This document shows, in pieces, positions 23,794 through 39,763 of a stretch of DNA of 64,000 nt. This stretch comes from Streptococcus suis (lineage in GTDB: Bacteria > Bacillota > Bacilli > Lactobacillales > Streptococcaceae), in assembly GCF_016743335.1 (NCBI RefSeq), contig NZ_WCJE01000005.1, positions 1-64,000 of the forward strand, written 5' to 3'. Positions within the stretch are counted from its first letter, which is position 1. The number at the start of each line of letters is the position of its first letter. Below the pieces are notes generated by a model. It saw only the letters and a list, made by a program, of their open reading frames with translations. It did no database searches and was not told where the DNA came from. Position numbers and translations under genes: made by a program.

Positions 23794-26319
23794 TTATTTA
23801 TACAGTAATTTCACTTCTCCTGTAAGTCCAAACGGTTCAACCAGTAAATACTGATTTAATCCCCCTCGAAATTGCGTTCCTAGTGTATTCGTCACTTCAA
23901 TTCGTATTGAATTTTCACCAGTTCTCAACCAATCTTTAATCTCATAAATATACGGTGGAGCTATACGCACTCCGATGGATTTGCCATTAATAAATACCTC
24001 GGCTACCTCATAAGCACAGCCAAGATCAATTCCAAATACGGTTTCAAAATCCGATATTTCTATGGAAGTTTCATAGGCTACAGTACCAGAAACTCTATCA
24101 AAACCTTCCATAGTATTTAATGGTCTTATTACTGAAGACTCGTCAATATCAACAAAATGTGTCGTACTACCTGCTTTAAAGTAACTCATTTTCCAGTCAG
24201 AATGTATGACCTCAGTCTTTTGAATGTCTACCTCAGGGTTAGCATCTCGTTCTTCTCCAAATATCCAAATAATGGTTTCAAATGGTTTTAATTTTAAGGT
24301 ATTTGAAGTGACTTGATAGTATTTATCCATATAAGCATCATATGCCACTGGGTTCCTATGTTCATTTACAAAATGAATATGCGTATCTACTACTTTATGT
24401 AAACTTTCATTGAAAAACATCCAATAATCTAACCCATCTTTTTGATAGTGGTAATAGACCAAATCCTTACATGGATTACTTAATTTGATTTCCGCACTTT
24501 TTTCTACTGCTGTAGCTAAATCATCCAGCGTAACTATACGACCTGGAATAGAATGATTCGTACTTTCTATTCTTCCATCTATGAAAACAAGATCAATCCC
24601 TTGAGTTTCTAATTTTTTAAATGTCTTTAAAATTTCGTTAGGAATATAGTCTGTATAAGGAATCACTATTGTTTTAAATTCCTGATGATTAATAACAAGA
24701 TTTCCTCCACTCACCTCTGCTAACTTCAACAAATCATAAGGAACAATTTCAAAGTCGAGTTGGGCTTGAGTCAGTATACGTGCAGGCACTTCTACTGGCA
24801 TGTAATTTCTTGAAGCCCACTCAAATTCTGCTGGATAAAATAAAGCAATGTTTGACTTATGATTTCCACCACTAAATAGTGACATCAAGCGGTTCATATA
24901 ATTGGTCAAATATGACATATACGGAAACTGCGGATTATTACCATGTGCATAAAAATGGGGTGGACAATCAAAATCTGGATAAGCTTTTGGACTAAAGGCA
25001 TGGGGAACAATATAGTTAATACCGCGAACAATTAAATGATCTGCAATCCATTTCATTGTTTTTAATCCTTCGTTCCAACCATAGGCCCCAAAAGCTTCAC
25101 ACATAGCACGACCTTTTTTATGTGGATACAATTGAGAAGCAGATGCCCCTAATTTAGCAAGAGCATAGTGATAAAATTGACCATCACTTCCACCTGTCTG
25201 ATAAGCATCATGATGATATGGCATGCCAGGAACAATTTGACCACCAATCACATCAATTCCTGAATAATGCTGTGCCTCTTGTCCACGGAAAAAATGGCCA
25301 GCCCCATAGCCTAGTCTTGCATGAGCTCCATTATCTTCGATATTATGACCTAAATAATCCACTCCGTGTTCTTGACACCAATCAGCAAGTACTTTCACAA
25401 AATTTTCATTATAGGCAAGTGTCACTTTATTCATAAATTCATATCGAACTTCTCTCTCTTTGCCATCGATATCCGATACCCAAAGCAACGGAAGAGAGGT
25501 ATTTGGAAAATCGAGTATATTTTCAAAATCTTTTTTCCAAGGCAAGACCATATCTGTTTTACCAATCCATGCCTCCGTACCTTTCATATTACCAAAGCGC
25601 GGTTCATCCGAGAAGAACCCTGTAATTGTTGAACCAAAAAATTCACCAACATGCTCATAGTGTTTTTCATACACTTCACTCACTAATACTTGCGTTGCTT
25701 CAGCTTGTAGTGGATTTAGATAATCTTTAGTTGCCTCTTCTCCACCTTCATGGGTTGAAAAAACAACAAAAACAGACCAATCACCAACTGGAATATCTAA
25801 GTAAATCGTGTCGTTTTTAAACTGATGACTTACATCTATCAAAGTATCTGCAATGATTGGATCCCCATCTACTGTCGTTGAGATTTCTCTCTGAGCTAGA
25901 TATACACCGAGAATATCAATCATTTCAGTTTGTCCTACTTCCCACGGACGTCCTTTTAATTGACTGGCATCAATTCTAGCACCTTCAAATGGCCCTACAA
26001 TATCATACCGTCTCATTGTCAGGTATTGTTTTTTCAATTCAGGATAAGATTCTTTTATTTTTCCATTTGCAAAACCTGTTGGAAAATGTGAATCGTCTAG
26101 TATCCAAACTTTCATGTCACGCTTTTGACATTCTCGCAATATGATGTGTACATCTTTCCACCATTTTTCACCAACAAAATCTGGATGCGGACGAGATTCA
26201 ATGCAGAGTGCTTTCATACCTGAATTATAAATTTTTTCAACATATTCTACTAGAATATCTTCTTCCTCACCATGTTGCCAGAAAAAGGGAAAAAGATGAT
26301 TTTCTACCACTTGATTCAT
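23794..26319 (-). CDS. GH106-like alpha-L-rhamnosidase
   Basis: 841 residues from ATG 26319, which follows GGAGGT; a 14-codon extension is rejected. The N-terminal barrel has GMKALCIESRPHPDFVGEKW, WILDDSHFPTGFANG and FFSDEPRFG; later HNIEDNGAHARLGYGAGHFF, QLYPHKKGRAMCEAFGAYGW and a C-terminal jelly-roll (EVFINGKSIGVRIAPPY). This order is that of family GH106 rhamnosidase-like proteins, known chiefly from Bacteroidetes pectin (RG-II) loci. No signal peptide. It lies 156 nt downstream of the PTS gene on the same strand, with a terminator-like hairpin between. Confidence 0.85.
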   Translation of the reverse strand: MNQVVENHLFPFFWQHGEEEDILVEYVEKIYNSGMKALCIESRPHPDFVGEKWWKDVHIILRECQKRDMKVWILDDSHFPTGFANGKIKESYPELKKQYLTMRRYDIVGPFEGARIDASQLKGRPWEVGQTEMIDILGVYLAQREISTTVDGDPIIADTLIDVSHQFKNDTIYLDIPVGDWSVFVVFSTHEGGEEATKDYLNPLQAEATQVLVSEVYEKHYEHVGEFFGSTITGFFSDEPRFGNMKGTEAWIGKTDMVLPWKKDFENILDFPNTSLPLLWVSDIDGKEREVRYEFMNKVTLAYNENFVKVLADWCQEHGVDYLGHNIEDNGAHARLGYGAGHFFRGQEAQHYSGIDVIGGQIVPGMPYHHDAYQTGGSDGQFYHYALAKLGASASQLYPHKKGRAMCEAFGAYGWNEGLKTMKWIADHLIVRGINYIVPHAFSPKAYPDFDCPPHFYAHGNNPQFPYMSYLTNYMNRLMSLFSGGNHKSNIALFYPAEFEWASRNYMPVEVPARILTQAQLDFEIVPYDLLKLAEVSGGNLVINHQEFKTIVIPYTDYIPNEILKTFKKLETQGIDLVFIDGRIESTNHSIPGRIVTLDDLATAVEKSAEIKLSNPCKDLVYYHYQKDGLDYWMFFNESLHKVVDTHIHFVNEHRNPVAYDAYMDKYYQVTSNTLKLKPFETIIWIFGEERDANPEVDIQKTEVIHSDWKMSYFKAGSTTHFVDIDESSVIRPLNTMEGFDRVSGTVAYETSIEISDFETVFGIDLGCAYEVAEVFINGKSIGVRIAPPYIYEIKDWLRTGENSIRIEVTNTLGTQFRGGLNQYLLVEPFGLTGEVKLLYK

Positions 26320-26475: not shown

Positions 26476-27837
26476 TTACTCAGCTTTTTTTCCTGGTCCA
26501 AAGACAATACTTAAGATTAATGGAACGAAAAAGGCAATAATTGTAGCAAAAATATATGAATATAAGCTAGATAAATTACCATCCGGTGAAACGAAGAACG
26601 GATATGAGAGAAGTCCGGCACCACCAAAACCATATATCAATGCTCCATTAAAGCCTTGTACCGCTCCGGCTAAGCCACCACCAATGAACGCATAAATAAA
26701 TTGTCGACGATATGGTAGAGCCACACTATAAATGATTGGTTCAGTAATCCCTACCAAACCTGTAACTCCAGTTGAAAATCCAGTAGCTTTTTCTTTTTGA
26801 TTTTTCGATTTTAATGCAAATCCAATTGCAGAACCTGCAAGAGCAAAGACGGTTACTTGGAAGACTGCATTAATAGGATCTTGACCCAGACTGGTGATAT
26901 TATTAATAAGAACTGGAATAAATGCGTAGTGAAGACCAAATATAACAACAATTTGCCAGAATGCACCACCAATAATGCCAAATAATAGAGGGCTAAAACC
27001 ATAAATCGCCATTACAATTGATGCAAGTCCGTTTGAAACCCACGTCATAACGGGACCTAGCACTAAAAAGGCTAGTGGAGCTGTGATCAGAACAGTCAGA
27101 AGAGGCGCAAACATCATTCGAATAGATTCATGAAGTTTCGGTTTAACAAAATTTTCAATTTTTGCTGCCACATATGATGCAATCATTGCAGGAAAGAGCG
27201 ATTGAGTATAATTGACCAACACAATAGGAATTCCAAAGAAAGTCATCGCAGTTCCTTCGCTATACGCAGTTACAACATCAGGGAACACTAATCCTGCACC
27301 AAGCATTGCACCAATAAACGGATTTCCTCCATAGACCTTACTTGCGTTATAACCAACCCAGATAGGCAAATAGTAGAAGAACGCTTGAGAAACAGAATAC
27401 CATATTTGATATGCCCCATCTGTCTCTTTTAACCAACCGGCAACAACTGCAATTGTGAGCAACCCTTTGATAATACCCGCAGCACCCATAACACCAAATG
27501 TAGGTGTCATAATTCCAACGATAGATTTAAAGAATCTATTAAATAAGTTGCCTTCTACTTTTTCACTACTTGTTTCCTCGTCGGTTGTTGGTAACCCGAT
27601 TTGTTTCATAAAAGTTTCATATACATCAGGAACATTTAAACCAATGATAATCTGGTACTGACCGCCTGAAAACACTGAACCAGCAACTTTTTCGATAGTA
27701 TCAACTTTATTCTTATCCACCAAGGACTCATCTTTGAGTACCAAACGTAAACGAGTTGCACAATGTGTAGCTCGTGATATATTTTCCTTTCCACCAACAG
27801 CAGAAAGAATTTCTTGAGACATTAATTCATACGTCAT
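26476..27837 (-). CDS. PTS EIIBC, beta-glucoside family, no EIIA domain
   Basis: 453 residues. The EIIB domain (1-85) has the phospho-acceptor Cys in ATHCATRLRLVLKD; the EIIC domain (105-450) has about ten membrane segments and the family motif GITEPIIYSV. Members such as BglF carry a C-terminal EIIA, absent here, so an EIIA from elsewhere must donate phosphate. It starts 11 nt after the GH140-like gene, so substrate is probably a glycoside taken up and phosphorylated, then cleaved by that enzyme. Substrate unknown. Confidence 0.9.
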   Translation of the reverse strand: MTYELMSQEILSAVGGKENISRATHCATRLRLVLKDESLVDKNKVDTIEKVAGSVFSGGQYQIIIGLNVPDVYETFMKQIGLPTTDEETSSEKVEGNLFNRFFKSIVGIMTPTFGVMGAAGIIKGLLTIAVVAGWLKETDGAYQIWYSVSQAFFYYLPIWVGYNASKVYGGNPFIGAMLGAGLVFPDVVTAYSEGTAMTFFGIPIVLVNYTQSLFPAMIASYVAAKIENFVKPKLHESIRMMFAPLLTVLITAPLAFLVLGPVMTWVSNGLASIVMAIYGFSPLLFGIIGGAFWQIVVIFGLHYAFIPVLINNITSLGQDPINAVFQVTVFALAGSAIGFALKSKNQKEKATGFSTGVTGLVGITEPIIYSVALPYRRQFIYAFIGGGLAGAVQGFNGALIYGFGGAGLLSYPFFVSPDGNLSSLYSYIFATIIAFFVPLILSIVFGPGKKAE

Positions 27838-27848
27838 TTTTCTTCTCC

Positions 27849-29198
27849 TTATTTTTTTATAATTAAGACTGCATCTTTCATAAAATGATGCATATTGACG
27901 ACTGTTTTATTGAACTGTTCAATATATATAGCGGAAACAATTTCTTGTTTATGATCATCTAAGCTAATATATAACATATCTTTCGAAGACAAATCCCCCT
28001 TTAATTGTAATTTAATATTAGAAGGTACATAGATAATCCATTCTGTCTCTGTCTCTGCAGCACGAATTTCCTTAACAGCTTGGTAACAATTTGGGATTGA
28101 ATTTAATCCCTGTTGAAAAACACTTGAGTTCTCATTAAGACCATTTTGAATAATCGTTTGATTGGGAACTAGTTGTTCAAAATGATGCTTTTCCATGAAC
28201 GATTTTAAATAACCATAATCTGACGCACCTTTGAATGTCAAAGCCTGATGCCAATCATATGGTGTTTCAAATGACTCTCCAATTGATGAATCAAACTCCA
28301 TACGTTCGTCATGCCAAGACCAAATTCCATGAGCACCATAGGTTATTCCAGCCTGAGCTCCAGATAAGATACTTTGCCATGCCACTTTCCGTACATCTTC
28401 TCGTGAAAAACGACCATAAGCATTTCGACTAAAGCCCATCATTTCATAACATGGTTCTGAATTCAAAACTGGTTTCTTAGGCTCTTTATTAGCAAAGTAT
28501 TCTCCCAACTCGTAGCACATAGATGGATAGAGCTGGTTGTGACCAGACTGGTACATATAGAAATCCAGATTCGGATTCTCTTCTAATTGTTTCGGTAAAT
28601 CCTTTTCTCTACCGCGTATATGTAAAGTTGTCAAAGCGTTTGGAGATAATAATTTCACTGTATTTAAACAAATTGAATAGTACTCATTAATAACTTCCTC
28701 TGTCTGAAAGTCCGTATCTCCGCTAATGATATATATAGGATTATATTGATCAAATCGATTAACTACCATTCGTGTATAAGCTTCAACTTCTTCTTTTGGG
28801 AATAAGCCAACTTGTCTAATCTTTAGATCACTTGCCCAAGTATTTGGTAAATAATTACACCATAATAATACTAAAGCAATTACTATTCCCTTATCTCTAG
28901 CTGTAGCAACCATTCGTTCCGCTCGATCAAAATATTCTTGATTAGGTTGGCTAAAATCAAATTCACCATTTTCATTTACATGAAAAGGCAAATAGTTTAA
29001 ATTGGTCGTACTGGAATCCCATTGCCAAAGCATATTTACCTGAATGACATTAAATCCTTGCATTCTACGTGTATCCAGATAGTATTCCCAGGCTTCTTCA
29101 CTGATATTGGTAAAAGCGCTCCAACAGGTATCGGCTAAATAGAACCAAGGCTTATTGTCTTTTATAAAGTTTTTTTTAGTTTCGGAAATTTCTAACAT
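27849..29198 (-). CDS. GH140/DUF4038-type apiosidase-like hydrolase
   Basis: 449 residues from ATG 29198 (AAAGGG upstream). The sequence NKPWFYLADTCWSAF then EYYLDTRRMQGFNVIQVNML is the hallmark start of the DUF4038 (beta/alpha)8 barrel, the family that includes the GH140 apiosidase of RG-II breakdown. Further barrel motifs are YNPIYIISGDTDFQ, PVLNSEPCYEMMG and GAQAGITYGAHGIWSWHDE, with acidic candidates for catalysis. A small beta domain ends the protein. No signal peptide. First gene of a unit with a PTS permease, facing an AraC regulator, and next to an apiose-like catabolic operon. The family contains other activities. Confidence 0.78.
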   Translation of the reverse strand: MLEISETKKNFIKDNKPWFYLADTCWSAFTNISEEAWEYYLDTRRMQGFNVIQVNMLWQWDSSTTNLNYLPFHVNENGEFDFSQPNQEYFDRAERMVATARDKGIVIALVLLWCNYLPNTWASDLKIRQVGLFPKEEVEAYTRMVVNRFDQYNPIYIISGDTDFQTEEVINEYYSICLNTVKLLSPNALTTLHIRGREKDLPKQLEENPNLDFYMYQSGHNQLYPSMCYELGEYFANKEPKKPVLNSEPCYEMMGFSRNAYGRFSREDVRKVAWQSILSGAQAGITYGAHGIWSWHDERMEFDSSIGESFETPYDWHQALTFKGASDYGYLKSFMEKHHFEQLVPNQTIIQNGLNENSSVFQQGLNSIPNCYQAVKEIRAAETETEWIIYVPSNIKLQLKGDLSSKDMLYISLDDHKQEIVSAIYIEQFNKTVVNMHHFMKDAVLIIKK

Positions 29199-29273
29199 TT
29201 TAACCCTTTCACGATATTTTAGTAACATTTTTTTATCACGACAAATTCAAGTCTGGTTACTTTTACACTTGTA

Positions 29274-29288
29274 ATTATAGCGCTTTCA
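29274..29288 (-). promoter_or_regulatory. Promoter -10 overlapped by a cre-like site, GH140-PTS operon
   Basis: On the minus strand TGAAAGCGCTATAA (29288-29275) differs at one position from the CcpA cre consensus, and its 3' part overlaps a TATAAT -10 box (29279-29274). The position, about 75 nt before the GH140-like start, suits catabolite repression by CcpA. Confidence 0.5.
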
Positions 29289-29346
29289 TATTATAATTTA
29301 AATATCAATAATTTATACTATTTATAACATTTTTTTGGATTATATT

Positions 29347-30345
29347 ATGAACGAAACTAAACTAAAAAATTATTTATATACCTTGACAAAATCCGAGGAA
29401 CTCTATCTAAAAAAAATATATTTTGATTATTCGAATGCTAACAAAACAATACAACGAGATAAAGATATTGTTTATCAATTTTCGTTAAAGGAAGTTATTG
29501 AAAGTCAAAATGGAGGGCAGTTTTTCATTCGGAAACAGAGTAGATTCGCGCCTGTACCTACACATATAACGGATGCGATTGAACTAAACTATGTTTATCA
29601 TGGTAATAGTACACACTATATAAATGGACAAAAAATTATTCTGCAAGAAGGTGACTTAATTTTGATTGATACAAATACTACTCATGCAGTTGAAAGTCCA
29701 AACTATGAGGATATTATTATCAGTATAAATATCAATCCCGATTATTTCAAAGACCATTTTCTCAACCAACTCAGCAGCTCGTCCCCATTAGTTAAATTTC
29801 TTTATCACGCTATCTCAGATAGCCAAAATACCAATCAATACCTCTTATATCGCCAACAATCCTCTCCACAACTTCACCTTCTTTTTCAACAACTGCTAAT
29901 GGAGGAAGTTGAACCGAAACTCTTAAGCCTCCAAGTAAAAAATCATTACTTTCAGTTAATCCTTTTAGAATTAATAAGATCGTTTTCGGTTGAAGTAAAC
30001 GGAACTAGTGACGATAGCCATAAACTTCAACTTCTATTAAATGTACTGGAATATATAAATCAAGAATATGCTTCAATTACCTTAGAGTCTTGCGCAAACG
30101 CCTTCGGTTATAATACAAGTTATTTTAGTCATCTAATAAAAACGATTTCTGGACAGAATTTCAAAAAATTACTACAAAAAAAGCGGCTTGAGGTCAGTCG
30201 TGAACTATTGACAATATCAACTAAATCAATACAGGAAATTGCTCATGAAGTGGGATATTCAAATCTCACCCAATATTACAGTGATTTTAAGAAAGCCTTT
30301 CACATGACCCCTGCATCATATAGAAAAAACTCAGAGCTAGATTGA
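29347..30345 (+). CDS. AraC-family regulator of the GH140-PTS unit
   Basis: 332 residues from ATG 29347 (an upstream TTG at 29335 is less likely). Sensor domain: IELNYVYHGNSTHYINGQ and LQEGDLILIDTNTTHA. DNA-binding domain: ITLESCANAFGYNTSYFSHLIK and IQEIAHEVGYSNLTQYYSDFKK. It resembles the AraC protein at 1571 in length and layout. It is divergent from the GH140-PTS operon, so it should activate that unit on sensing a pathway sugar. Its 3' end is part of a terminator stem. Confidence 0.9.
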   Translation: MNETKLKNYLYTLTKSEELYLKKIYFDYSNANKTIQRDKDIVYQFSLKEVIESQNGGQFFIRKQSRFAPVPTHITDAIELNYVYHGNSTHYINGQKIILQEGDLILIDTNTTHAVESPNYEDIIISININPDYFKDHFLNQLSSSSPLVKFLYHAISDSQNTNQYLLYRQQSSPQLHLLFQQLLMEEVEPKLLSLQVKNHYFQLILLELIRSFSVEVNGTSDDSHKLQLLLNVLEYINQEYASITLESCANAFGYNTSYFSHLIKTISGQNFKKLLQKKRLEVSRELLTISTKSIQEIAHEVGYSNLTQYYSDFKKAFHMTPASYRKNSELD

Positions 30346-30369
30346 AAGGTCAATCTAGCTCTGAGTTTT
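30326..30369 (+). terminator. Terminator of the AraC gene
   Basis: Perfect 20-base arms (30326-30345 and 30350-30369; core CTCAGAGCTAGATTGA) with a 4-nt loop. The left arm includes the AraC stop codon. On the plus strand it ends in TTTTA. It can also act on minus-strand transcription. Confidence 0.9.
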
Positions 30370-30469
30370 ACACAATGAAAATCAAGATTCCTCTCAGAAA
30401 TGAGACCCATTTTAAACTGAAGCTGATCAATTCGAGTTGTCAACAGATTGCATTGATTTTTACATAGTA

Positions 30470-31378
30470 TTAATTTTCAATTGGATGATAAAAACCTCCA
30501 TTTCGTGTTTTAAACGGAACGATCCATTCGAGAAATAAATCAATCCATTTATAGACTTGTGCATTCATATTACTAGCCTTTGTTCCCGTACGCAAATCTC
30601 CAAGAACTAAACCATGTTTCCCTTTATCAAATAAATGCAATTCATAAGGTATCCCTGCTTTTTCTAATTCAAGGCTGAATTCCAACGCACCTATTGAGGG
30701 AGTCAAAACATCTTCTCTTGTGTGCCAAATAAATGTTGGTGGCGTCAAAGATGAAACATTATTTATTAAATTTAACTCTTTTATAGTAGCTTCGCTTGGA
30801 TTAACATCTCCTGTCGCAGCATAAATAACATTGTCTATGGATGTAGAATTTGCTGTTTTAGGTTTCAAATCATAAGCAGCATATGCCAGAAGCAAATGAG
30901 TTGGCCTGTAAAGACTTCTATCTTTCCCAACTAACTTTTCTAACCATTCTTCATGCCATCTCGTACCTAATAATCCTGCCACATTCCCACCAGCTGAAAA
31001 TCCTCCTACAATAATATAATCCGTATCAACAGCAAATTGCTCTGAATTTTCTCTTAAAAAAGCTACTGCCTCAGCTAAACTGACAAGCGGATTCGGAAAC
31101 ATACTTACTGGCTTAACGGGAAGTTTTTCACTATCACTTACTGACATAACTTCCCTACCTTCTGTTGCATAATGTACCACTACAACATGAAATCCTTCAG
31201 CCAAAAACCTTAAGGCTACTGATTCATCTTCACGAAAAGATGTCCAAAGATAAGCACCACCAGGACAAATAACAATTGTTGGATATTTTCGTGCGCTATC
31301 AATTTCTTCATTAGCCTCTTGAAAATAGTATTTTGCATAAGAACCATCAATGCTCAATTTTTTTTCAAAATAGTTCAT
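30470..31378 (-). CDS. Alpha/beta hydrolase, acetyl-esterase-like
   Basis: 302 residues. The oxyanion region is CPGGAYLWTSFREDES, the nucleophile elbow is VGGFSAGG, the Asp region is FIWHTREDVLTPS, and the His is in FDKGKHGLVLG: a complete Ser-Asp-His triad as in acetylxylan-esterase-like proteins (BD-FAE group). No signal peptide, so it is intracellular. It is the last gene of the transketolase-isomerase-kinase operon, 26 bp after the kinase, and probably removes acetyl or similar groups from the imported sugar. Confidence 0.85.
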   Translation of the reverse strand: MNYFEKKLSIDGSYAKYYFQEANEEIDSARKYPTIVICPGGAYLWTSFREDESVALRFLAEGFHVVVVHYATEGREVMSVSDSEKLPVKPVSMFPNPLVSLAEAVAFLRENSEQFAVDTDYIIVGGFSAGGNVAGLLGTRWHEEWLEKLVGKDRSLYRPTHLLLAYAAYDLKPKTANSTSIDNVIYAATGDVNPSEATIKELNLINNVSSLTPPTFIWHTREDVLTPSIGALEFSLELEKAGIPYELHLFDKGKHGLVLGDLRTGTKASNMNAQVYKWIDLFLEWIVPFKTRNGGFYHPIEN

Positions 31379-31404
31379 ACCCTCACCTCATTCATACTCA
31401 CTTG

Positions 31405-32853
31405 TTATAAAAAATATGAAACGGCTCTTTCCCAGCCTGCAATCTTATCTAAACGTTTGTTTTTAAATTCAGTTTCTGGAAACACTGTTTTCTTTTGAAT
31501 TGAATCCAAAATATCACAACCGTAACATCCCGAAGCAATCCCTGCCATATAAGCAACACCTGTACAGGAAGCCTCCTCAACTTCTGAGATATCAATTTCT
31601 GCGTTTGCCAAATTACTTTGAAATTGCATTAGATAATTATTTCGAGTTGGACCGCCATCGACACTTATATTTTTTAATTCAAGACTTGAAACTGACTTCA
31701 TAGCAGAGATAACAGCATTGATTTGATAAGCAATACTTTCTAACCCTGCACGAACCAATTCGCATTTTCCAGTTGTTCGGGTCATTCCGACAAAGGAAGC
31801 CTTTATATCATCTCTAAAATAGGGAGCTCCAATACCAGTAAATGCTGGAATTAAATAGGTTTGATCCTGAAAATTTGCTTTAGCAACCATAGATTCTATT
31901 TCATTTACATCAGAGAAAAATTCCAATTGATCCTTCATCCAACTTATTACAGCACCAGCATAATGAACATTTCCCTCAAGAACATAATGGCAAACTCCTT
32001 CCGAAGCCCATCCAACAGAAACAGCTAAGTTTTCAGGCATAATTGAAACAGTGCGACCGATATTCATCATAATCGACGAACCTGTACCATAAGTTGCTTT
32101 AACGGAACCTGGTTCAAAACCTTTATGAGCAAACAAAGCTGCATGAGAATCCCCCATAACAGCATGAATGGCTATAGGAGCTGGCAATATTCCTTCAAAA
32201 TCTGTATAACCAAATAAACTATCCGAATGTTGAATTTCTGGCAAGTTGGTTCTTGCGATACCAAATAAGTTTAATAATTCGCCATCCCAATCCAGTGTCT
32301 CCAATGACATCAGTTGAGTTCTACTTGCATTAGAAACATCTGTCTTATAAGATCTCCCATTCGTTAATTTATAGACCAACCAAGTATCAATAGTCCCCAA
32401 AAGTAAAGCGCCTTTCTCGCCTTGATAACGATTCAAAAACCAAGTAAATTTTGCTGCAGAAAAATATGGTGATAATGGCAATCCAGTTTTTCTCTTTACC
32501 AACGAAGCAACTGACATATTCATACTATCAGTAATTTCTTTAGCACGATTACATTGCCATACTATCGCGTTTTCGGCAGGCAAAGCAGTTTCTTTATTCC
32601 ATGCAAGAGCCGTTTCTCGCTGATTTGTAATACCAACTGAGGCGATGAGAGAGGTATCAATTCCATTAATAACTTCTCTCACTAAAGAAATGACATTTTG
32701 ATAAATTTCTTCCGGATCATGTGATACCCAACCTAATTCATTAATCATTTGCTCATGACTTTTATATAACTTTTTAACGATTTTGCCATTCGCATCATAT
32801 AATATCACTTTTGTCCCTTGCGTACTCTGATCTATACCTATCACGTACACCAT
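31405..32853 (-). CDS. FGGY carbohydrate kinase, candidate apulose kinase
   Basis: 482 residues from ATG 32853 (AAAGGA upstream; 4 bp after the isomerase stop). GIDQSTQGTKVILYD is the N-terminal phosphate-binding motif, then GITNQRETALAWNKET, TYGTGSSIMMNIG and ISVDGGPTRNNYLMQ. The family covers xylulose, glycerol, ribulose and related kinases; substrate cannot be read from motifs. Its operon partners, an isomerase and a two-subunit transketolase, match the known bacterial D-apiose route, in which an FGGY kinase phosphorylates apulose. L-fuculose-type or pentulose substrates remain possible. Confidence 0.85.
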   Translation of the reverse strand: MVYVIGIDQSTQGTKVILYDANGKIVKKLYKSHEQMINELGWVSHDPEEIYQNVISLVREVINGIDTSLIASVGITNQRETALAWNKETALPAENAIVWQCNRAKEITDSMNMSVASLVKRKTGLPLSPYFSAAKFTWFLNRYQGEKGALLLGTIDTWLVYKLTNGRSYKTDVSNASRTQLMSLETLDWDGELLNLFGIARTNLPEIQHSDSLFGYTDFEGILPAPIAIHAVMGDSHAALFAHKGFEPGSVKATYGTGSSIMMNIGRTVSIMPENLAVSVGWASEGVCHYVLEGNVHYAGAVISWMKDQLEFFSDVNEIESMVAKANFQDQTYLIPAFTGIGAPYFRDDIKASFVGMTRTTGKCELVRAGLESIAYQINAVISAMKSVSSLELKNISVDGGPTRNNYLMQFQSNLANAEIDISEVEEASCTGVAYMAGIASGCYGCDILDSIQKKTVFPETEFKNKRLDKIAGWERAVSYFL

Positions 32854-32857
32854 AATT

Positions 32858-34294
32858 CTATCCTTTGTTTGGTCTGAAATAACTTGCTTCATCTCCTGCA
32901 AGATACGCCTTTACTTCCTCTTCAATAGGATCATAAAAATCTGCCTTTATTCCAATGTATTTACATGCTTCATACAATATTGGAACAAGATCGTCTTGCA
33001 CACCTGCCACATGATGGATATACGGACCATAGACCAATTTTGATTCCAATCGGTTAAGGTTTTCAAATTCAACATAGAAATATGTCCCTTGGTTGTATGG
33101 TCCATCAATACCTTTGGCATTTCCCATCAATAACGAATACTCTCCATTATCTCCATCAAAACGACAGAAAGTATATTCTGTCTTTTTAGCTCTGAACCAA
33201 ACAGATCCTGGATAATTAAATACAAAGTGGCTTGGTGCCAAAATTGGTTTCGTATCTGCAGTTTGATACGCAAATACACCAAGGTGCTGTAACAACTCTC
33301 CATTAGGATTTTCTGGATGACGACAATTAACGTCTGCAAAAACAGCGCGTTTTTCACCTAGAGAGGCAGCTTCAATCAACAACTCTGAAATGACACCATG
33401 AACATCCGTTTCACAAACAAATGGAATTCCTTCTTCTTGAAGAAGAGACAATGAAGCGTAAGGTAATATGCCAATTTCATCTTGAAGTGCTGTCCAACAT
33501 TGAATTACCCCAGAATTACAACCATACTTATGACACAGTTCTTCAAGTGCTACTTTTAGAGCAGCAACCATATTTAATTCTTCAGTTTTAATCTGAACTT
33601 CTGTATTCTCATAAAACCACCTTTCACACGCTAAAATTTTATCAACTTCTTCATTTTTTACACGATGAATTTCCTCCACTAATTCATGAATTGGGACTGG
33701 AGATATTTGAATGCCAAATTTCTCTAACAGTTCACCCTCATTACAAATAACAGTCCAGAAATCGAATGGTCTCGGACCCACTTGCAAGATACGAGTGTTA
33801 CGAAACGTTTTGACTACATTGCACACTTTTACAAAATCTTTAACCCCACGTTCAAAAACTGGATCATCAAGTTCTGAATTTTTAATATAAGTAAAAGGTA
33901 CTTTGAAACGACGTAATACTTTACCTATTGCAAATAACCCACATTGGCTATCCCTTAAACGAGATCCGTCTTCTGCTGGAGTTTCATCTTTCGGCCCCCA
34001 TAGCAAAACCGGTACATCCAGTTTTTTTGCCAATCTTGCAACAGCATATTCAGTTCCAAAGTTTTCATTTGCAATAAATAAACCATCAATTTTTGCTGCT
34101 CTAAATTTTTCAGCTGCACGCTCAACACTCTCATCATCGTAGATAAGTCCATCAGCATTGATGTCTAGAATATCTACATAATTTATTCCCCAAGATTGCA
34201 ATTTTTCACGAGTATAATTTGCATATTCTATTGCTGCATCTGCACTAAATAAATTCCGACGAGTTGGTGCAAAACCAAGTGTAATATTATCCAT
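32858..34294 (-). CDS. L-fucose/arabinose isomerase-family protein, candidate apiose isomerase
   Basis: 478 residues from ATG 34294 (GGAGGAAACA upstream). Features of the fucose isomerase-like superfamily are DGLFIANENFGTEYAVARLAK in the N domain, a central ILQVGPRPFDFW, then GVIQCWTALQDEIG, PFVCETDVHGVIS and a C-terminal APSHFVFNYPG with GPYIHHVAG. These include Glu, Asp and His suited to a divalent metal site. It would convert an aldose to a ketose for the following kinase. Substrate is inferred from operon context only. Confidence 0.82.
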   Translation of the reverse strand: MDNITLGFAPTRRNLFSADAAIEYANYTREKLQSWGINYVDILDINADGLIYDDESVERAAEKFRAAKIDGLFIANENFGTEYAVARLAKKLDVPVLLWGPKDETPAEDGSRLRDSQCGLFAIGKVLRRFKVPFTYIKNSELDDPVFERGVKDFVKVCNVVKTFRNTRILQVGPRPFDFWTVICNEGELLEKFGIQISPVPIHELVEEIHRVKNEEVDKILACERWFYENTEVQIKTEELNMVAALKVALEELCHKYGCNSGVIQCWTALQDEIGILPYASLSLLQEEGIPFVCETDVHGVISELLIEAASLGEKRAVFADVNCRHPENPNGELLQHLGVFAYQTADTKPILAPSHFVFNYPGSVWFRAKKTEYTFCRFDGDNGEYSLLMGNAKGIDGPYNQGTYFYVEFENLNRLESKLVYGPYIHHVAGVQDDLVPILYEACKYIGIKADFYDPIEEEVKAYLAGDEASYFRPNKG

Positions 34295-34307
34295 TGTTTC
34301 CTCCAAT

Positions 34308-35246
34308 TTACTTTGATAAGAGTTTATTTATTTCATTTTTAATACCATCTGCTGTAATTCCATAGTAGGCAAATACTTCTTGTATAACCCCTGTAACAAC
34401 ATTTTCATCAGGGATACCCATTATTTTCAAGCGGCCTCCTTCCTCTGCAACAACTGATGCTACCGCAGAGCCTAGTCCCCCATTAATACTATGTTCTTCT
34501 ACTGAAACAATACCTTTTGTCTCCCTCACAGCTTTACGCACTGCCTCACTATCAAATGGTTTTAAACTTGTAAAATTTAAGACACGGACCGAAACTCCAT
34601 CCATTTTCAAAGCATTAGCAGCATCCATCGCAACTCGAACAGTCTCCCCTACAGCAGCTATGGTTATATCAGTTCCTTCAACCATGACGGAGGCTTTTCC
34701 TATTTCAAATTGAACATTTTCTTCTGTAAAACAATCCTCAACTGGATTTCTTCCCAATCGTACATAAGCAGGTTTGTCAGAATGAACTAGGTATTCAAAA
34801 ACAGCTTTTGTTTCATGTCTATCAGCAGGAATCAATACTTCTAAATTTGGAATTGCACGAGTTACCGCAATATCTTGAAGCGAGTGATGACTAGCGCCAA
34901 GTGCTCCGTAACTAACTCCACCACTGATACCAACTAATTTCACATTTTTATTTGAATATGCTACATCAACTTTTACTTGCTCAATACTACGCATACTCAA
35001 AAAACATGCTGGAGATGCAACAAATGGGTGTTTTCCATTTAAAGCTAGGCCCGCTGAAATTCCAACGAGGTTTTGTTCAGCAATTCCCGTTTCTATCATT
35101 CTTTCAGGAAAAGCTTTGAAAAAATCTACTAAAGATGCTGAACCTCTAGAATCGCTTGTAAGCACCACCAAATCTTTATCATGTTTAGCTGCTTCAATCA
35201 GAGTTTTGCACATCACTGCACGATTAGCGATTGTATTTACTACCAT
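34308..35246 (-). CDS. Transketolase-like, C-terminal subunit
   Basis: 312 residues covering the pyrimidine-binding and C-terminal domains of a split transketolase. MIETGIAEQNLVGISAGLAL has the catalytic Glu, followed by GVSYGALGASHHSLQDIAVTR, RLGRNPV and SVEEHSINGGLGSAVA. GGAGGATTATA precedes the ATG, which overlaps the N-subunit gene by 23 bp, implying equimolar co-translation. The pair uses thiamine diphosphate to move a two-carbon ketol. In the described apiose route such a pair cleaves apulose-4-phosphate. Confidence 0.93.
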   Translation of the reverse strand: MVVNTIANRAVMCKTLIEAAKHDKDLVVLTSDSRGSASLVDFFKAFPERMIETGIAEQNLVGISAGLALNGKHPFVASPACFLSMRSIEQVKVDVAYSNKNVKLVGISGGVSYGALGASHHSLQDIAVTRAIPNLEVLIPADRHETKAVFEYLVHSDKPAYVRLGRNPVEDCFTEENVQFEIGKASVMVEGTDITIAAVGETVRVAMDAANALKMDGVSVRVLNFTSLKPFDSEAVRKAVRETKGIVSVEEHSINGGLGSAVASVVAEEGGRLKIMGIPDENVVTGVIQEVFAYYGITADGIKNEINKLLSK

Positions 35247-36069
35247 TATAATCCTCCAATTTTTTATCTAAATCAGCAATAGCTCGTTCATACTCCTCAG
35301 TTGTTAACACATGGTGATGCCAATTCGCCTTTCCTTCTGCCTCAGCTACGCCTTTCCCTTTCAAGGTATTTGCAATAATCACAGTTGGTTTTTCAGAAAC
35401 AGGTTTACAAGAAAGTGCATTTAGTAGCTGTTCCATATTATTTCCGTCCTTCACATCAATGACATTCCAGCCAAAAGACTCCCACTTTTGATGAAGCGAA
35501 TCTAAATGCATGACATCTTCTGTTGAACCAGTAATTTGTAGTTTATTCCGATCAATAATTGCAATCAGATTATCCAGTTTATAATGTGCTGCAGCCATAG
35601 CTCCTTCCCATACGGAACCTTCTGCTAATTCACCATCTCCCATTAACACATAGGTCTTGTACATTTTCTTATCAATTTTTGCGGCGAGTGCAGACCCAAC
35701 TGCTATCGGCAGTCCGTGACCTAAAGATCCTGTATTCATCTCCACTCCCGGAACCTTGTTATTAGGATGCCCAAGCAAACGTGACTGAAAACGTGAAAAT
35801 GAATTTAGTTCTTCTTTTGGAAAAAAAACTTTATCAGCTAGAATTGCCCAAAGGACCTCGACAGCATGTCCTTTACTTTGGATGTAGCGATCTCGATTGT
35901 CATCTTTGGGCTTTTTAGAATCTACTCTCAAAACATGATAATATAGTGCAACCAAGATATCTGTACAAGATAAGTCAGATCCAGTATGACCCGTTCCAGC
36001 TTCATAAATCAATTTCAGAAAATCTTTTCTTATTTCTAAAGATTTTCTTTCTAAACTCATTAAATCCAT
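35224..36069 (-). CDS. Transketolase-like, N-terminal (ThDP-binding) subunit
   Basis: 281 residues. GTGHTGSDLSCTDILVALYY, YIQSKGHAVEVLWAIL, MNTGSLGHGLPIAVGSALAA and the ThDP-Mg motif GDGELAEGSVWEGAMAAA with IIDRNKLQITG are all characteristic. GGAGCAATT precedes the ATG. First gene of the five-gene minus-strand operon (two transketolase subunits, isomerase, kinase, esterase). The promoter lies in the 174-bp gap shared with the divergent LacI gene and its palindromic operators. Confidence 0.93.
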   Translation of the reverse strand: MDLMSLERKSLEIRKDFLKLIYEAGTGHTGSDLSCTDILVALYYHVLRVDSKKPKDDNRDRYIQSKGHAVEVLWAILADKVFFPKEELNSFSRFQSRLLGHPNNKVPGVEMNTGSLGHGLPIAVGSALAAKIDKKMYKTYVLMGDGELAEGSVWEGAMAAAHYKLDNLIAIIDRNKLQITGSTEDVMHLDSLHQKWESFGWNVIDVKDGNNMEQLLNALSCKPVSEKPTVIIANTLKGKGVAEAEGKANWHHHVLTTEEYERAIADLDKKLEDYNGSKYNR

Positions 36070-36133
36070 AATTGCTCCTAGTTTAGTTTTATTTTAGTAA
36101 AGAATGCGCTTTCTTTATATTTAGTTTACTATT

Positions 36134-36185
36134 TTTAGCTAAATCAGTCAATGTTTTAGTTCAAAAAAACAAAATTTTAGCTAAA
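36134..36185. promoter_or_regulatory. Twin palindromic operators of the LacI regulator
   Basis: The perfect palindrome TTTAGCTAAA occurs at 36134-36143 and 36176-36185, with centres exactly 42 bp (four helical turns) apart, in the gap between the divergent transketolase operon and lacI-type gene. Near copies lacking the central C (TTTAGTAAAG, TTTAGTAAAT) flank them. Palindromes with this spacing fit a looping LacI-family repressor that controls both directions. Confidence 0.75.
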
Positions 36186-36243
36186 CTTTGTTTAATTTAG
36201 TAAATGTGGTAAAATAAAACTGAATAACATAAAGGAAAACATT

Positions 36244-37269
36244 ATGAAATTAGAAGATATTGCAAAATTAGCTGGGGTCTCCAAAGGCGCTGCTTCATTA
36301 GCATTAAATAATAAATCTGGTGTGAGCGAGGAGACTCGAAAAAAAGTTTTGGAAATAGCACGGGAGGCAAATTATACTCCACTAAGACAAAAGAAAAAAC
36401 ACCAAATATCAGAACAGGAATTTGAACCTAAAATTATTTATTTTGTAGCCTGCCAAAGTGAAGACATTGTTACACAAAGTTATCAAAATCAGCCGTTTTT
36501 TGATGAATTGTTAACAGCGATTGCTACAGAAGCAAGAAAAAAAGGGAATATCTCCCTTGCTCTACGTACGATTGACCATCTGAATATCCGAGATAATATT
36601 CTGAATCTTTATAAAGAAAATAAAATGGATGGTATCATTTTATTAGCTACAAGTTTAGAAACCAATGAAATCAAGTCAATCGAAGAATTACACATCCCTT
36701 TAGTTTTACTTGATACTTGTGTGCCTGAATGTAATATTAATTTTGTTACAATAAATAATTTTCAAGGAGGATACCTAGCAGGAAAACAGATTTGTAAACG
36801 TCAATACAATTCTATTGGATATGCTCAATCTGAGACTCGAATATATAATTTCGAAGAAAGAAAAAAAGGACTATTCAAAGCTCTTAGTGAAAACGAGTTA
36901 TCAATAATTGAGGAAAATATTTTTACATTCTCACCAACAAAAATTGAAATCGATGAAACGATGAGGAGAGAACAATTTATCAAACCTAATCAACCACAAG
37001 TCATTTTTTGCGACAACGATTATATCGCGATTAGCCTAATCAAAACATTAAATGCTTTTTCAATAAAAGTTCCAGAAGATATAGCTGTAATTGGTTTTGA
37101 TAATATTAGAGAAAGTAGTGTGCTGACTCCTGAATTATCAACTATTAATGTATCAAAGCATTTAATGGCACAAACTGCTTTGAATCAGATTTTGGAGGTC
37201 ATTGAAGACCCCTGTAACAAACAACAATTTTACATTGGTACAAACTTTATAGCGAGACAGTCATTCTAA
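36244..37269 (+). CDS. LacI-family transcriptional repressor
   Basis: 341 residues. The N-terminal helix-turn-helix MKLEDIAKLAGVSKGAASLAL (residues 1-21) and hinge helix (VLEIAREANYTP) are typical. The sugar-binding domain follows (MDGIILLATS, VIFCDNDYIAISLIKTL, IAVIGFDNIRESSVLTPELSTI). AAAGGA precedes the ATG. It is divergent from the transketolase-isomerase-kinase-esterase operon, so it probably represses that operon until its sugar or phosphorylated sugar appears. Confidence 0.95.
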   Translation: MKLEDIAKLAGVSKGAASLALNNKSGVSEETRKKVLEIAREANYTPLRQKKKHQISEQEFEPKIIYFVACQSEDIVTQSYQNQPFFDELLTAIATEARKKGNISLALRTIDHLNIRDNILNLYKENKMDGIILLATSLETNEIKSIEELHIPLVLLDTCVPECNINFVTINNFQGGYLAGKQICKRQYNSIGYAQSETRIYNFEERKKGLFKALSENELSIIEENIFTFSPTKIEIDETMRREQFIKPNQPQVIFCDNDYIAISLIKTLNAFSIKVPEDIAVIGFDNIRESSVLTPELSTINVSKHLMAQTALNQILEVIEDPCNKQQFYIGTNFIARQSF

Positions 37270-37623: not shown

Positions 37624-38034
37624 CTAGTAATAGATTACAGCATCAGGACCATTTGAGTAGTCATCAAATCCGTGTAATTGGATAGCATCAAGTAGTGAAC
37701 TATTATTTGCATCATACAAAAATTTTTGCCATTTACCTAATAAGAGCTGTTTAACTAAAATTTCAATTTGAAGCTCAATATCTTCTTCAATTAACTCCGA
37801 AGTTTCAGCATGTAATTCATTTTCTACAATGACAAAACATTGTTGATTCTCAAATCTAATGGTCAATTTATCATTATTTCTTGAAAAAGAAATCGTCGCA
37901 AAATCTTCATCTGTGTAATAATAATCACTAACAAGATCAATACCATTACCGTTTATCATTAAGATTTTTTTGCATTTCATTTCTAAATCAACAATGATTG
38001 ACACAAAGTTTTCAATTAAATATTCATTAATCAT
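37624..38034 (-). CDS. Hypothetical protein, 136 residues
   Basis: Not recognised. A soluble, acidic protein without membrane segments; it alternates predicted strands (ATISFSRNNDKLTIRFENQQCFVIVEN) and ends with a helix and SNGPDAVIYY. AAAGGAG precedes the ATG at good spacing, so it is probably expressed. Its size, acidity and isolated place beside an integrase would suit an immunity-type or other accessory protein, but no family motif supports that. Confidence 0.65.
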   Translation of the reverse strand: MINEYLIENFVSIIVDLEMKCKKILMINGNGIDLVSDYYYTDEDFATISFSRNNDKLTIRFENQQCFVIVENELHAETSELIEEDIELQIEILVKQLLLGKWQKFLYDANNSSLLDAIQLHGFDDYSNGPDAVIYY

Positions 38035-38681
38035 AAAATCTTTCTCCTTTCTTTTTTTATTTAGTTTAGATTAATAGAAAATATATTATTTCATAGATTT
38101 ACCTCCTCTCTCTTTCAAAGATTAGTATGCCACTTTTTTCAAAACAAAAAAAATCGTGTAGAGAATTCTTCAAGCTAGCAAATGATATCTAATCGTTTTT
38201 TATTTTTGTGAAAAAGCGACATAATACTATTGAAAAAAATTGAATTACTAGAGAAAGAAGGTGATAAGCTCATTATCGATTGTATTTTCACACTGGACAC
38301 GGTGAAAAAGAAAGTTCAACTGATAATAGACTCTTTTTGTGAGGTGTCATTGACTTATGAAAAGAGATCGAAACAAGAATGAAGTAAATGGTTATTCTGC
38401 TGAATAATATGAAGTACAGAATAACCATTTATCAAAAAATATAGTACAGAAAAAAGTGTTTAACAGTGGTAAAAATAGTGTATATAGGTTTAAAAAGTAA
38501 TCAGTTCAATGACATTTGATTTTACCAAAGAAGAAAAACGGTGCCAACTGAATTTCTTTACAAACGTTATTCTCTATGAGAAAGCCTCGACGGGTAATAT
38601 CAGAGCATACCCAGCTCATCTAAAAAGGGTGGGAGGCAGTTTACCAGTAATATGCATTCTATCAAAGAAAGGAGAAAGAAA
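38035..38681. other. AT-rich spacer upstream of the integrase, with stem-loop
   Basis: No secure gene. A 50-codon frame starting at TTG (38230-38382; LKKIELLEKEGDKLI...) has protein-like composition but no ribosome binding site. A perfect 15-bp inverted repeat, TAAATGGTTATTCTG (38385-38399) and CAGAATAACCATTTA (38417-38431), has a 17-nt loop; it could be a terminator or a recombination or replication site. A 65-codon frame at 38509 overlaps the integrase leader and is judged spurious. Confidence 0.45.
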
Positions 38682-39647
38682 ATGCCACGAAAAAAGAACT
38701 CATTAAAGCACGATATCTTCGTCGCAGCAACAAAAGATGTTACAAATAATACCTCACGTACTTCTTACAAAAGATCCGCAACTCGATTTTCAAAATGGGC
38801 TAAGATCAACGGAATAAAGAAAATTTCGGAAATCACAGAAGAAGTTCTTCAACAATATCATAATAATCTTCAACAAGATCCTAAACAATACACAGCAGCA
38901 ACAATTCATACATACCTTGCACCAATTTGTAAAGCAGCAGGAATTAATTTAAACCGAATTCGAAAACAAAAAAGGACAAGCGATAAAATAATCCGCGGAC
39001 GAAAACAAGAGGCAAATGCACAAGGGAAAAATCAAGAATTGAACTCTCGCTTCTCTCGCCTAATCGCATTTCAGAAAGTAGTTGGTATTCGTCGAAACGA
39101 ATTAAAGAATTTAACAGGAAAAGATTTGAAATTCGATGAATATGGGAATTGCTATATTCACGTAAAGCGGGGCAAAGGCGGTAAAAAACAAATGCAATAT
39201 ATTCTGCCGAAAGACATCGAGTTGGTAAGACAGACTTTTTATGGAATAGGAGAAAATGAACCTGTCTTCTCAGACAACGAGATGAACAATCAAATCAATT
39301 TACATGCATTACGCGCTCAACATTCTCGCGATAGCTATTTCTATTATCTAGAAAAAATTCAAGCTAATCCAAAAATGAGACACGCACTCTCACATTTATT
39401 AATTACACGATGGGAAGAAGGCCATCAAAAATTGAAAAAGGAATCACAAAGCAAATACGAAAGACAGCGTAGAAATTTTATTTTTGATTTAAGAGATGAA
39501 GCATATATTTTACGTGGCTCAAATAAATCAAAAGCAGTTGCTTCTGGAATGCCAATTGAGTATAACCGACTTGCTTTAATGGCTGTATCCGTTTTGAATT
39601 TATCACATTGGCGTTTATCTGTTACGGTCACTAATTACATTTTATAA
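38682..39647 (+). CDS. Tyrosine-recombinase-like site-specific integrase
   Basis: 321 residues from ATG 38682, which follows AAAGGAGAAAG. The N-terminal SAM-like DNA-binding part (residues ~10-80) has TSRTSYKRSATRFSKWAK. The catalytic part has VGIRRNELKNLTGKDL (first Arg), HVKRGKGGKKQ (Lys) and LHALRAQHSRDSYFYYL (His-x-x-Arg), and the end has ALMAVSVLNLSHWRLSVTVT. The final nucleophilic Tyr may be the one in TVTNYIL at the C-terminus. Basic composition. Suggests an integrated element, with the Rep-like gene downstream. Confidence 0.82.
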   Translation: MPRKKNSLKHDIFVAATKDVTNNTSRTSYKRSATRFSKWAKINGIKKISEITEEVLQQYHNNLQQDPKQYTAATIHTYLAPICKAAGINLNRIRKQKRTSDKIIRGRKQEANAQGKNQELNSRFSRLIAFQKVVGIRRNELKNLTGKDLKFDEYGNCYIHVKRGKGGKKQMQYILPKDIELVRQTFYGIGENEPVFSDNEMNNQINLHALRAQHSRDSYFYYLEKIQANPKMRHALSHLLITRWEEGHQKLKKESQSKYERQRRNFIFDLRDEAYILRGSNKSKAVASGMPIEYNRLALMAVSVLNLSHWRLSVTVTNYIL

Positions 39648-39763
39648 TGAACAGTAAATAATATTTTGGAATAATCAGATGATATACATATAATCGACCA
39701 AAAATACTCTTTACGATGTCATATTCTGTCATAATATACTTTGAGAAAAGAAAAGAGTAAACA

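Follow-up and report, generated by a model that had tools for sequence, protein, structure and literature searches.

A Streptococcus suis locus that probably serves the use of plant-bound D-apiose, with a kinase and a split transketolase related to AplK and AptA/AptB

A group of isomerase, kinase, transketolase and glycosidase genes was studied in a stretch of 64,000 nucleotides of Streptococcus suis DNA (contig NZ_WCJE01000005.1 of assembly GCF_016743335.1, hereafter the window), where a first-pass annotation made from the sequence alone had proposed a D-apiose utilisation system. All the genes named in that annotation are intact open reading frames (ORFs). Five of them abut or overlap in a packed operon on the minus strand, running from 36069 to 30470 in the order tktN-tktC-isomerase-kinase-esterase; the two transketolase genes (coding for the N- and C-terminal subunits) overlap by 23 nt, and the remaining gaps are of 26 nt or less. 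A LacI gene is divergent from the operon, and past the esterase follow, in order, an AraC gene, a gene of the PF13204 apiosidase family, a phosphotransferase system (PTS) IIBC gene and a GH106-like gene (Table 1). Profile scans confirmed the families proposed for the apiosidase-like, PTS, LacI, kinase, split transketolase and esterase genes. The PTS gene does lie beside the locus as proposed, but just outside the range 27849..37269 assigned to the system, as does the GH106-like gene. The AraC gene falls inside that range and had not been named in the annotation. The starts of the isomerase, kinase, apiosidase and GH106-like genes were revised according to their Shine-Dalgarno context (from 34306 to 34294 for the isomerase and from 32901 to 32853 for the kinase). 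Outside the locus, the same genome holds a GlpK with Gln246 and Phe270 intact and a full-length transketolase, so the kinase and transketolase of the locus are dedicated copies. We consider, with a probability of about 0.8, that the locus enables the use of D-apiose bound in plant glycosides. The first-pass annotation had assigned this substrate by inference, and we likewise infer it from sequence comparison.

The AplK/AptA/AptB route of D-apiose degradation in Enterobacterales (MetaCyc PWY-8089) was reportedly described by Carter et al. in 2018. The apiose cluster of Escherichia coli SE15, located from PMC13001218, was used as its reference. Relatives of the module were collected as 80 named loci, which are the best matches among those listed from one scan and include one duplicate genome (L031 and L036). 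The four core genes (tktN, tktC, isomerase and kinase) occur together in 75 of them; four of the other five have a contig end near the isomerase, and L091 lacks tktC and has the N half and the kinase in one frame.

The window kinase is 36% identical to AplK of the SE15 cluster. With the GlpK model TIGR01311 the two score almost the same (492 and 495 bits), both under the cut-off of 590; model scores thus fail to part AplK from GlpK, while phylogeny and residues do. In a tree of 46 of the 94 kinase sequences, a 100/100 branch separates seven GlpK (six fetched and the genome's own copy) from 39 AplK-type and module kinases, so that the proposed phylogenetic check places the window kinase with AplK. 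Gln246 and Phe270, which we take to be glycerol contacts of GlpK, are retained in all seven GlpK and replaced by Ser in 80/80 module kinases and in the six AplK-type references (four enterobacterial and two from Rhizobium). Y135 is retained in the module kinases and is Leu or Met in the AplK-type references. With its score under the cut-off and Ser in place of F270, the window kinase falls outside GlpK and is probably AplK-like, a putative D-apulose kinase.

The N and C halves of the transketolase lie on separate genes and share 46% and 37% identity with AptA and AptB of SE15, respectively. Both subunits were available for 88 loci or references, from which a joint tree of 39 rows was built. 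A 99/98 branch sets 32 rows (26 module pairs and six AptA/AptB references) apart from seven other split transketolases; two outgroup branches are long, SqwGH is absent, and this tree, like that of the kinases, contained no characterised enzymes for other pentuloses. The second phylogenetic check thus also came out as proposed, with the window transketolase grouping with AptA/AptB, and an AptA/AptB-like enzyme with putative activity on D-apulose 4-phosphate is supported. An Apilactobacillus kunkeei plasmid carries genes labelled aptA/aptB (L127:7001-8729), with ligase and aminotransferase genes as neighbours. In the tree they stand on a long branch away from the AptA/AptB side, and their label is probably wrong.

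The isomerase matches no Pfam model above its cut-off (AraA_central reaches 23.8 bits against 24), and its best NCBIfam model, sulfoquinovose isomerase SftI, scores 98 bits, with the cut-off set at 700. The first-pass annotation had called it fucose-isomerase-like, which agrees with its AlphaFold2 model (mean predicted local distance difference test, pLDDT, of 84.8): the predicted structure is that of an arabinose/fucose isomerase over the whole length, with a template modelling (TM) score of about 0.8 and structural Z scores of 29-31 to AraA and 26-28 to FucI. In a weak sequence match (E 0.026), E299 (482-aa ORF numbering) is paired with a Glu of AraA, presumably the metal ligand E306. Together with D325, H341 and H432, E299 is invariant in 24/24 isomerases, including the three enterobacterial ones from Rahnella, Sodalis and Klebsiella (L108 was dropped because of a stop in its translation, and L093 was left out of the repeated alignment). 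A tree with very long branches places the module isomerases in a separate clade (100/100) and the enterobacterial ones with L010-L012. The enterobacterial isomerase was taken as ApsI by its position between AptB and AplK and not by published sequence. Orthology between it and the window isomerase, expected from gene order and 26-28% identity, was considered and is not supported by the tree. The proposed match of gene content to the apiose route therefore holds for the kinase and transketolase, which side with AplK/AptA/AptB, but not for the isomerase, which is no close relative of the enterobacterial one. The isomerase step seems to have been filled several times. A Rhizobium cluster (L126:4154-9261) has a TIM-barrel protein ahead of two transketolase genes, an FGGY kinase and a triose-phosphate isomerase gene, and is perhaps another version of the apiose route. 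For the E. coli cluster, two short-chain dehydrogenase/reductase (SDR) genes are proposed as isomerase replacements in PMC13001218.

The PF13204 score of the apiosidase-family protein is far above the cut-off of 26.5, and its best matches in the PDB, by sequence and by fold (model pLDDT 79.2), are 8t9w and then 5msy/3kzs. These are GH140 apiosidases, from a mangrove metagenome (8t9w) and BT_1012 (5msy/3kzs), with which it shares the full-length fold and a conserved Asp and Glu. D171 and E258 (459-aa ORF numbering) are invariant in 12/12 sequences and align with the GD and EP motifs found in 8t9w and in BT_1012; they are presumably the catalytic pair (D187/E284 in BT_1012). The protein differs from these two enzymes in being only 23-24% identical in the structural match, probably cytoplasmic and adjoined by a PTS. 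No signal peptide is visible by eye in the listed Lactobacillales apiosidase sequences, and the enzyme is presumably cytoplasmic. Its putative activity would be that of an apiosidase releasing apiose. DUF5060 proteins were also seen near the module in Bacilli and Monoglobus (L033:15527-17023, L035:7475-8944, L032:17820-19352 and L118:14706-16241). Three of these four were scanned, all with a DUF5060-PF13204-DUF5605 architecture, and they may represent a second kind of apiosidase.

Among 395 Lactobacillales genomes, the isomerase was found in 26 (E up to 1e-60), PF13204 in 24 (E up to 1e-10) and both in 23. In 21 of these 23 the two genes share a contig and are no more than about 5 kb apart, and in G407 and G575 they are on different contigs. 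The Fisher p value of 5.8e-33 for the co-occurrence is too small, since relatives are counted apart. Three genomes of the order have the isomerase without PF13204 (G564, G570 and G652), and G700 has PF13204 (a 26% homologue) without the isomerase, with no module in the 12 kb read. The idea that the apiosidase supplies the entry to the pathway is in line with this association across the order. Within the genus Streptococcus, the isomerase occurs in 4/284 genomes. In each of these four, homologues of the kinase, the N and C halves of the transketolase, AraC, the apiosidase and the PTS are also present. The system is rare within the genus and is no streptococcal peculiarity, being spread over Lactobacillales, Listeria and Clostridia. 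Esterase homologues are found in 8/80 named loci and in two of the three other Streptococcus loci, and are absent from the L143 stretch; a GH106-like homologue stands at the same place in two of these three loci.

The PTS IIBC protein is closest to TIGR01995 (449 bits, below the cut-off of 615). IIA domains occur at seven places in the genome, all outside the window's contig, and could serve it. A relative of the window apiosidase is present in 18 of the 31 named loci L036-L066. In 11 of the 18 a relative of the window PTS lies within about 2 kb of it, and in at least 14 some PTS stands beside it (L037 and L039 were left out of the scan, and the apiosidase stands at a contig end in L051 and L058). 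Among the others, the Enterococcus loci L038 and L040 have an EIIC gene and the Vagococcus locus L042 a mannose-type PTS of four genes; the beta-glucoside PTS was considered as the usual class across the order and dropped after a recount, as the class varies. A varying PTS class with a constant apiosidase pairing fits PTS import. As the PTS adjoins an apiosidase without a signal peptide, apiosides are probably imported and cleaved inside the cell. In 13/80 named loci (12 Clostridia and one Pectinatus, going by their titles), an ATP-binding cassette (ABC) transporter of the E. coli apiose type adjoins the isomerase, transketolase and kinase genes, with identities of 38-48% for the substrate-binding protein, 46-50% for the ATPase and 50-55% for the permease; L050 is a fourteenth locus with a weaker match. 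A Pfam match confirmed that the E. coli and Rahnella clusters contain a DUF2291 protein, and most of the 13 loci have a gene of similar length at its place (matched by length and position alone).

From these genes the following sequence of reactions can be proposed. The PTS would import an apiosyl-glucoside and phosphorylate its glucose, a step to which we give even odds. This substrate is more likely than free apiose, since phosphorylation of the latter by the PTS would make the kinase superfluous. The esterase may, speculatively, remove acyl groups from apiosides, and the GH140-type enzyme, whose family and conserved residues are clear, would free D-apiose inside the cell and so supply unphosphorylated apiose to the isomerase and kinase. 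The remaining phosphoglucoside could be opened by GH1 enzymes, for which the genome has ten near full-length genes. The isomerase, with its fold and conserved putative metal site, is predicted to convert D-apiose to D-apulose, and the GlpK-like kinase, judging from its clade and pocket residues, would yield D-apulose 4-phosphate. The AptA/AptB-like transketolase, placed by its clade, would then transfer a two-carbon unit to glyceraldehyde 3-phosphate. In the known route, xylulose 5-phosphate and dihydroxyacetone phosphate are the products of the transketolase. The positions of the two regulator genes suggest that the core operon is probably under LacI and the apiosidase-PTS part under AraC.

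Use of another rare aldose released by the PF13204 protein (another branched or furanosidic pentose, L-fucose or D-arabinose) is a rather unlikely explanation of the module. Arabinose, fucose and D-arabinose isomerases have the same fold as the window isomerase, whose clade is separate, and PF13204 is a broad family, seen beside the module of the distant relatives L033 and L035 only in its DUF5060-type branch. Such a substrate fits poorly with a kinase and a transketolase that both side with AplK/AptAB and with the apiose-type ABC transporter of the 13 loci, and a normal pentulose 5-phosphate should need no dedicated second transketolase. The sulfoquinovose route by sulfo-transketolase (sulfo-TK) needs no kinase, which the locus has. 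Neither a sulfoacetaldehyde reductase nor a second isomerase was found among the ten scanned locus proteins. The SftI model is the best for the window isomerase and a two-subunit transketolase is part of that route (PMC11659671), but the score is far below the cut-off and the enterobacterial isomerase beside AplK reaches 116 bits with the same model. We consider this route extremely unlikely and rejected it on the SftI score and gene content.

A glycerol or dihydroxyacetone operon was also considered, since the Listeria counterpart has been described as such. In Listeria monocytogenes NCTC7974 (L117:4004-13086), a LacI gene, an isomerase, two transketolase genes, a "glycerol kinase", a PTS IIBCA and a DUF4038 gene stand in a row, which was matched to lmo1030-1036 by gene order and annotation. 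These genes have counterparts in the window, with the differences that the Listeria PTS carries its own IIA and that the isomerase precedes the transketolase genes. The cluster lmo1030-1036 is described in PMC2996996 (lmo1030 as BglG-family), PMC3091722 relates lmo1031 possibly to fucose utilisation, calls lmo1031-1036 an operon responsible for glycerol metabolism and finds that its deletion modestly affects replication in cells, and PMC8079631 gives lmo1036 as a beta-glucosidase. The match of the kinase to GlpK models speaks for a glycerol operon. Against it, the kinase stays under the GlpK cut-off just as the AplK reference does, its pocket carries Ser where the genome's own GlpK keeps Gln246 and Phe270, and an isomerase and a transketolase have no evident role in glycerol use. 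A glycerol operon is very unlikely, and it was rejected on the pocket residues and clade of the kinase. An apiose role would explain the Listeria gene set better than glycerol or fucose.

Several observations weigh against the assignment of the window locus to D-apiose. The window-type isomerase and the enterobacterial one are not sister groups. In pairwise comparison, some GlpK (about 39-40%) come slightly closer to the kinase than AplK does. In the kinase tree, AplK attaches with weak support (84/58) to the larger module group, the one containing the window kinase, and a second group of module kinases, to which Listeria and Enterococcus belong, is the first to split off (98/92). The kinase sampling did not extend to GlpK-like kinases whose substrate is unknown, and the split transketolases outside the AptA/AptB side number only seven. 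Beyond the order PF13204 is less regular: it is missing in 15 of the 43 genomes reached via named loci (15 of the 43 being Lactobacillales loci), and many of the 28 genomes with PF13204 owe it solely to longer proteins of low score resembling the DUF5060 type (domain type judged by look). The PTS frame looks broken or short in two of the three other Streptococcus loci: it is split over two overlapping frames in S. ovuberis L031, and the ORF of L144 has no IIB part, which may be real or due to sequencing errors. Import by the PTS could go either way, and we know of no enzyme activity or growth data for any Gram-positive member.

In the trees, the kinase and the two transketolase subunits of the Enterobacterales apiose route, to which we relate the window locus, fall on the side of the window proteins. 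The Rahnella, Sodalis and Klebsiella clusters have the same order tktN-tktC-isomerase-kinase and, like E. coli, carry the DUF2291-type ABC transporter, relatives of which occur in the 13 loci described above. The window differs in the separate isomerase clade, in the PTS and apiosidase that replace the ABC transporter, and in its LacI gene, where the enterobacterial regulator is annotated as sugar-binding. According to PMC13001218, other E. coli and E. fergusonii strains with the cluster grew on D-apiose, K-12 did not, and Carter et al. 2018 showed apiose degradation by Clostridia. No apiose pathway in Gram-positives appeared in the titles and abstract openings listed by literature searches with apulose, apiosidase and apiose. 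The route itself is already known; as far as these searches go, what is new is the host range, together with the link of the apiosidase to a PTS and the separate isomerase. The form of the module is common to the streptococcus window, enterococci, lactobacilli and Listeria. That Lactobacillales and Listeria share a PTS-coupled apioside pathway, with import and phosphorylation, cytoplasmic GH140 cleavage and a separately recruited isomerase, is a broader proposal that may just as well hold as fail. The same proposal has the kinase-transketolase core joined to several PTS classes and at least three kinds of isomerising enzyme (the module family, the enterobacterial fucose-isomerase type with its own clade, and the Rhizobium TIM-barrel protein). 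If the apiose assignment is right, a substrate is given to an operon of enterococci, lactobacilli, gut Lachnospiraceae and Listeria, and food and gut bacteria would be predicted to cleave apiosylated flavonoids (apiin, for instance) and to use the apiose set free. The most useful consequence would be that the Listeria data on a glycerol or fucose operon need a new reading.

Table 1 Features of the window locus and of related loci (positions without a locus label are those of the window; L, label of a relative locus)
Feature	Position	Strand	Remarks
LacI-family regulator, divergent from operon	36244..37269	+	PF00356/PF13377; homologue in 66/80 named relative loci
Transketolase N-terminal subunit, AptA-like	35224..36069	-	46% identity to E. 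coli SE15 AptA; tree
Transketolase C-terminal subunit, AptB-like	34308..35246	-	37% identity to E. coli SE15 AptB; tree
Sugar isomerase, arabinose/fucose isomerase fold; proposed D-apiose isomerase	32858..34294	-	
GlpK-like FGGY kinase; proposed D-apulose kinase, AplK-like	31405..32853	-	36% identity to AplK; pocket Ser; tree
Esterase, final gene of packed operon	30470..31378	-	PF20434/PF07859 (BD-FAE/Abhydrolase_3)
AraC-family regulator, between esterase and apiosidase	29335..30345	+	PF12833/PF02311
GH140-type putative apiosidase, no signal peptide seen	27849..29198	-	PF13204 309 bits
PTS IIBC, beta-glucoside type, no IIA domain	26476..27837	-	PF02378, PF00367
GH106-like protein, possible alpha-L-rhamnosidase, downstream of PTS gene	23794..26319	-	PF17132 23.5 bits, cut-off 29
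Mannose-type PTS, Vagococcus	L042:14645-17161		Beside apiosidase
EIIC gene without IIB or IIA domain, Enterococcus	L038:16828-18144, L040:16809-18137		Beside apiosidase
Palindrome sites (putative LacI operator)	L031:8026-8042, L040:9876-9892, L042:9881-9897, L043:9887-9903, L143:8097-8113, L144:8013-8029, L147:9507-9523		Streptococcal and enterococcal relatives

With regard to regulation, an AraC homologue lies between the kinase and the apiosidase in the three other Streptococcus loci, before the esterase where that is present. Immediately upstream of the module, 8/148 loci (L031 and L036 being the same genome, and L043 having a second copy elsewhere) have a 17-bp palindrome, TTAGTTTASTAAACTAA, which is likely to be the LacI operator in these relatives. 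It was not found intact in the window, where the single match, with three mismatches inside the AraC gene, is no better than chance; no operator is therefore claimed for the window.

The surroundings of the locus were also inspected. Three ORFs lie in a region of low GC content (about 30%) at 37624-41134, none with a match in Pfam, PHROGs or PADLOC, and a reading of 38652-41134 as a mobile element was dropped for this reason. One of the ORFs, of 331 aa, resembles a tyrosine recombinase by eye, and the region is possibly a remnant of the event that introduced the glycoside island on the other side of the locus. This large plant-glycoside island (71-21836) includes two GH78 rhamnosidases, GH2, GH3 and GH43 genes, an MFS_2 sugar transporter and three AraC regulators, as well as an FGGY kinase (rhamnulokinase-like by eye) and an Sde182-like protein with a nucleoside-hydrolase fold.

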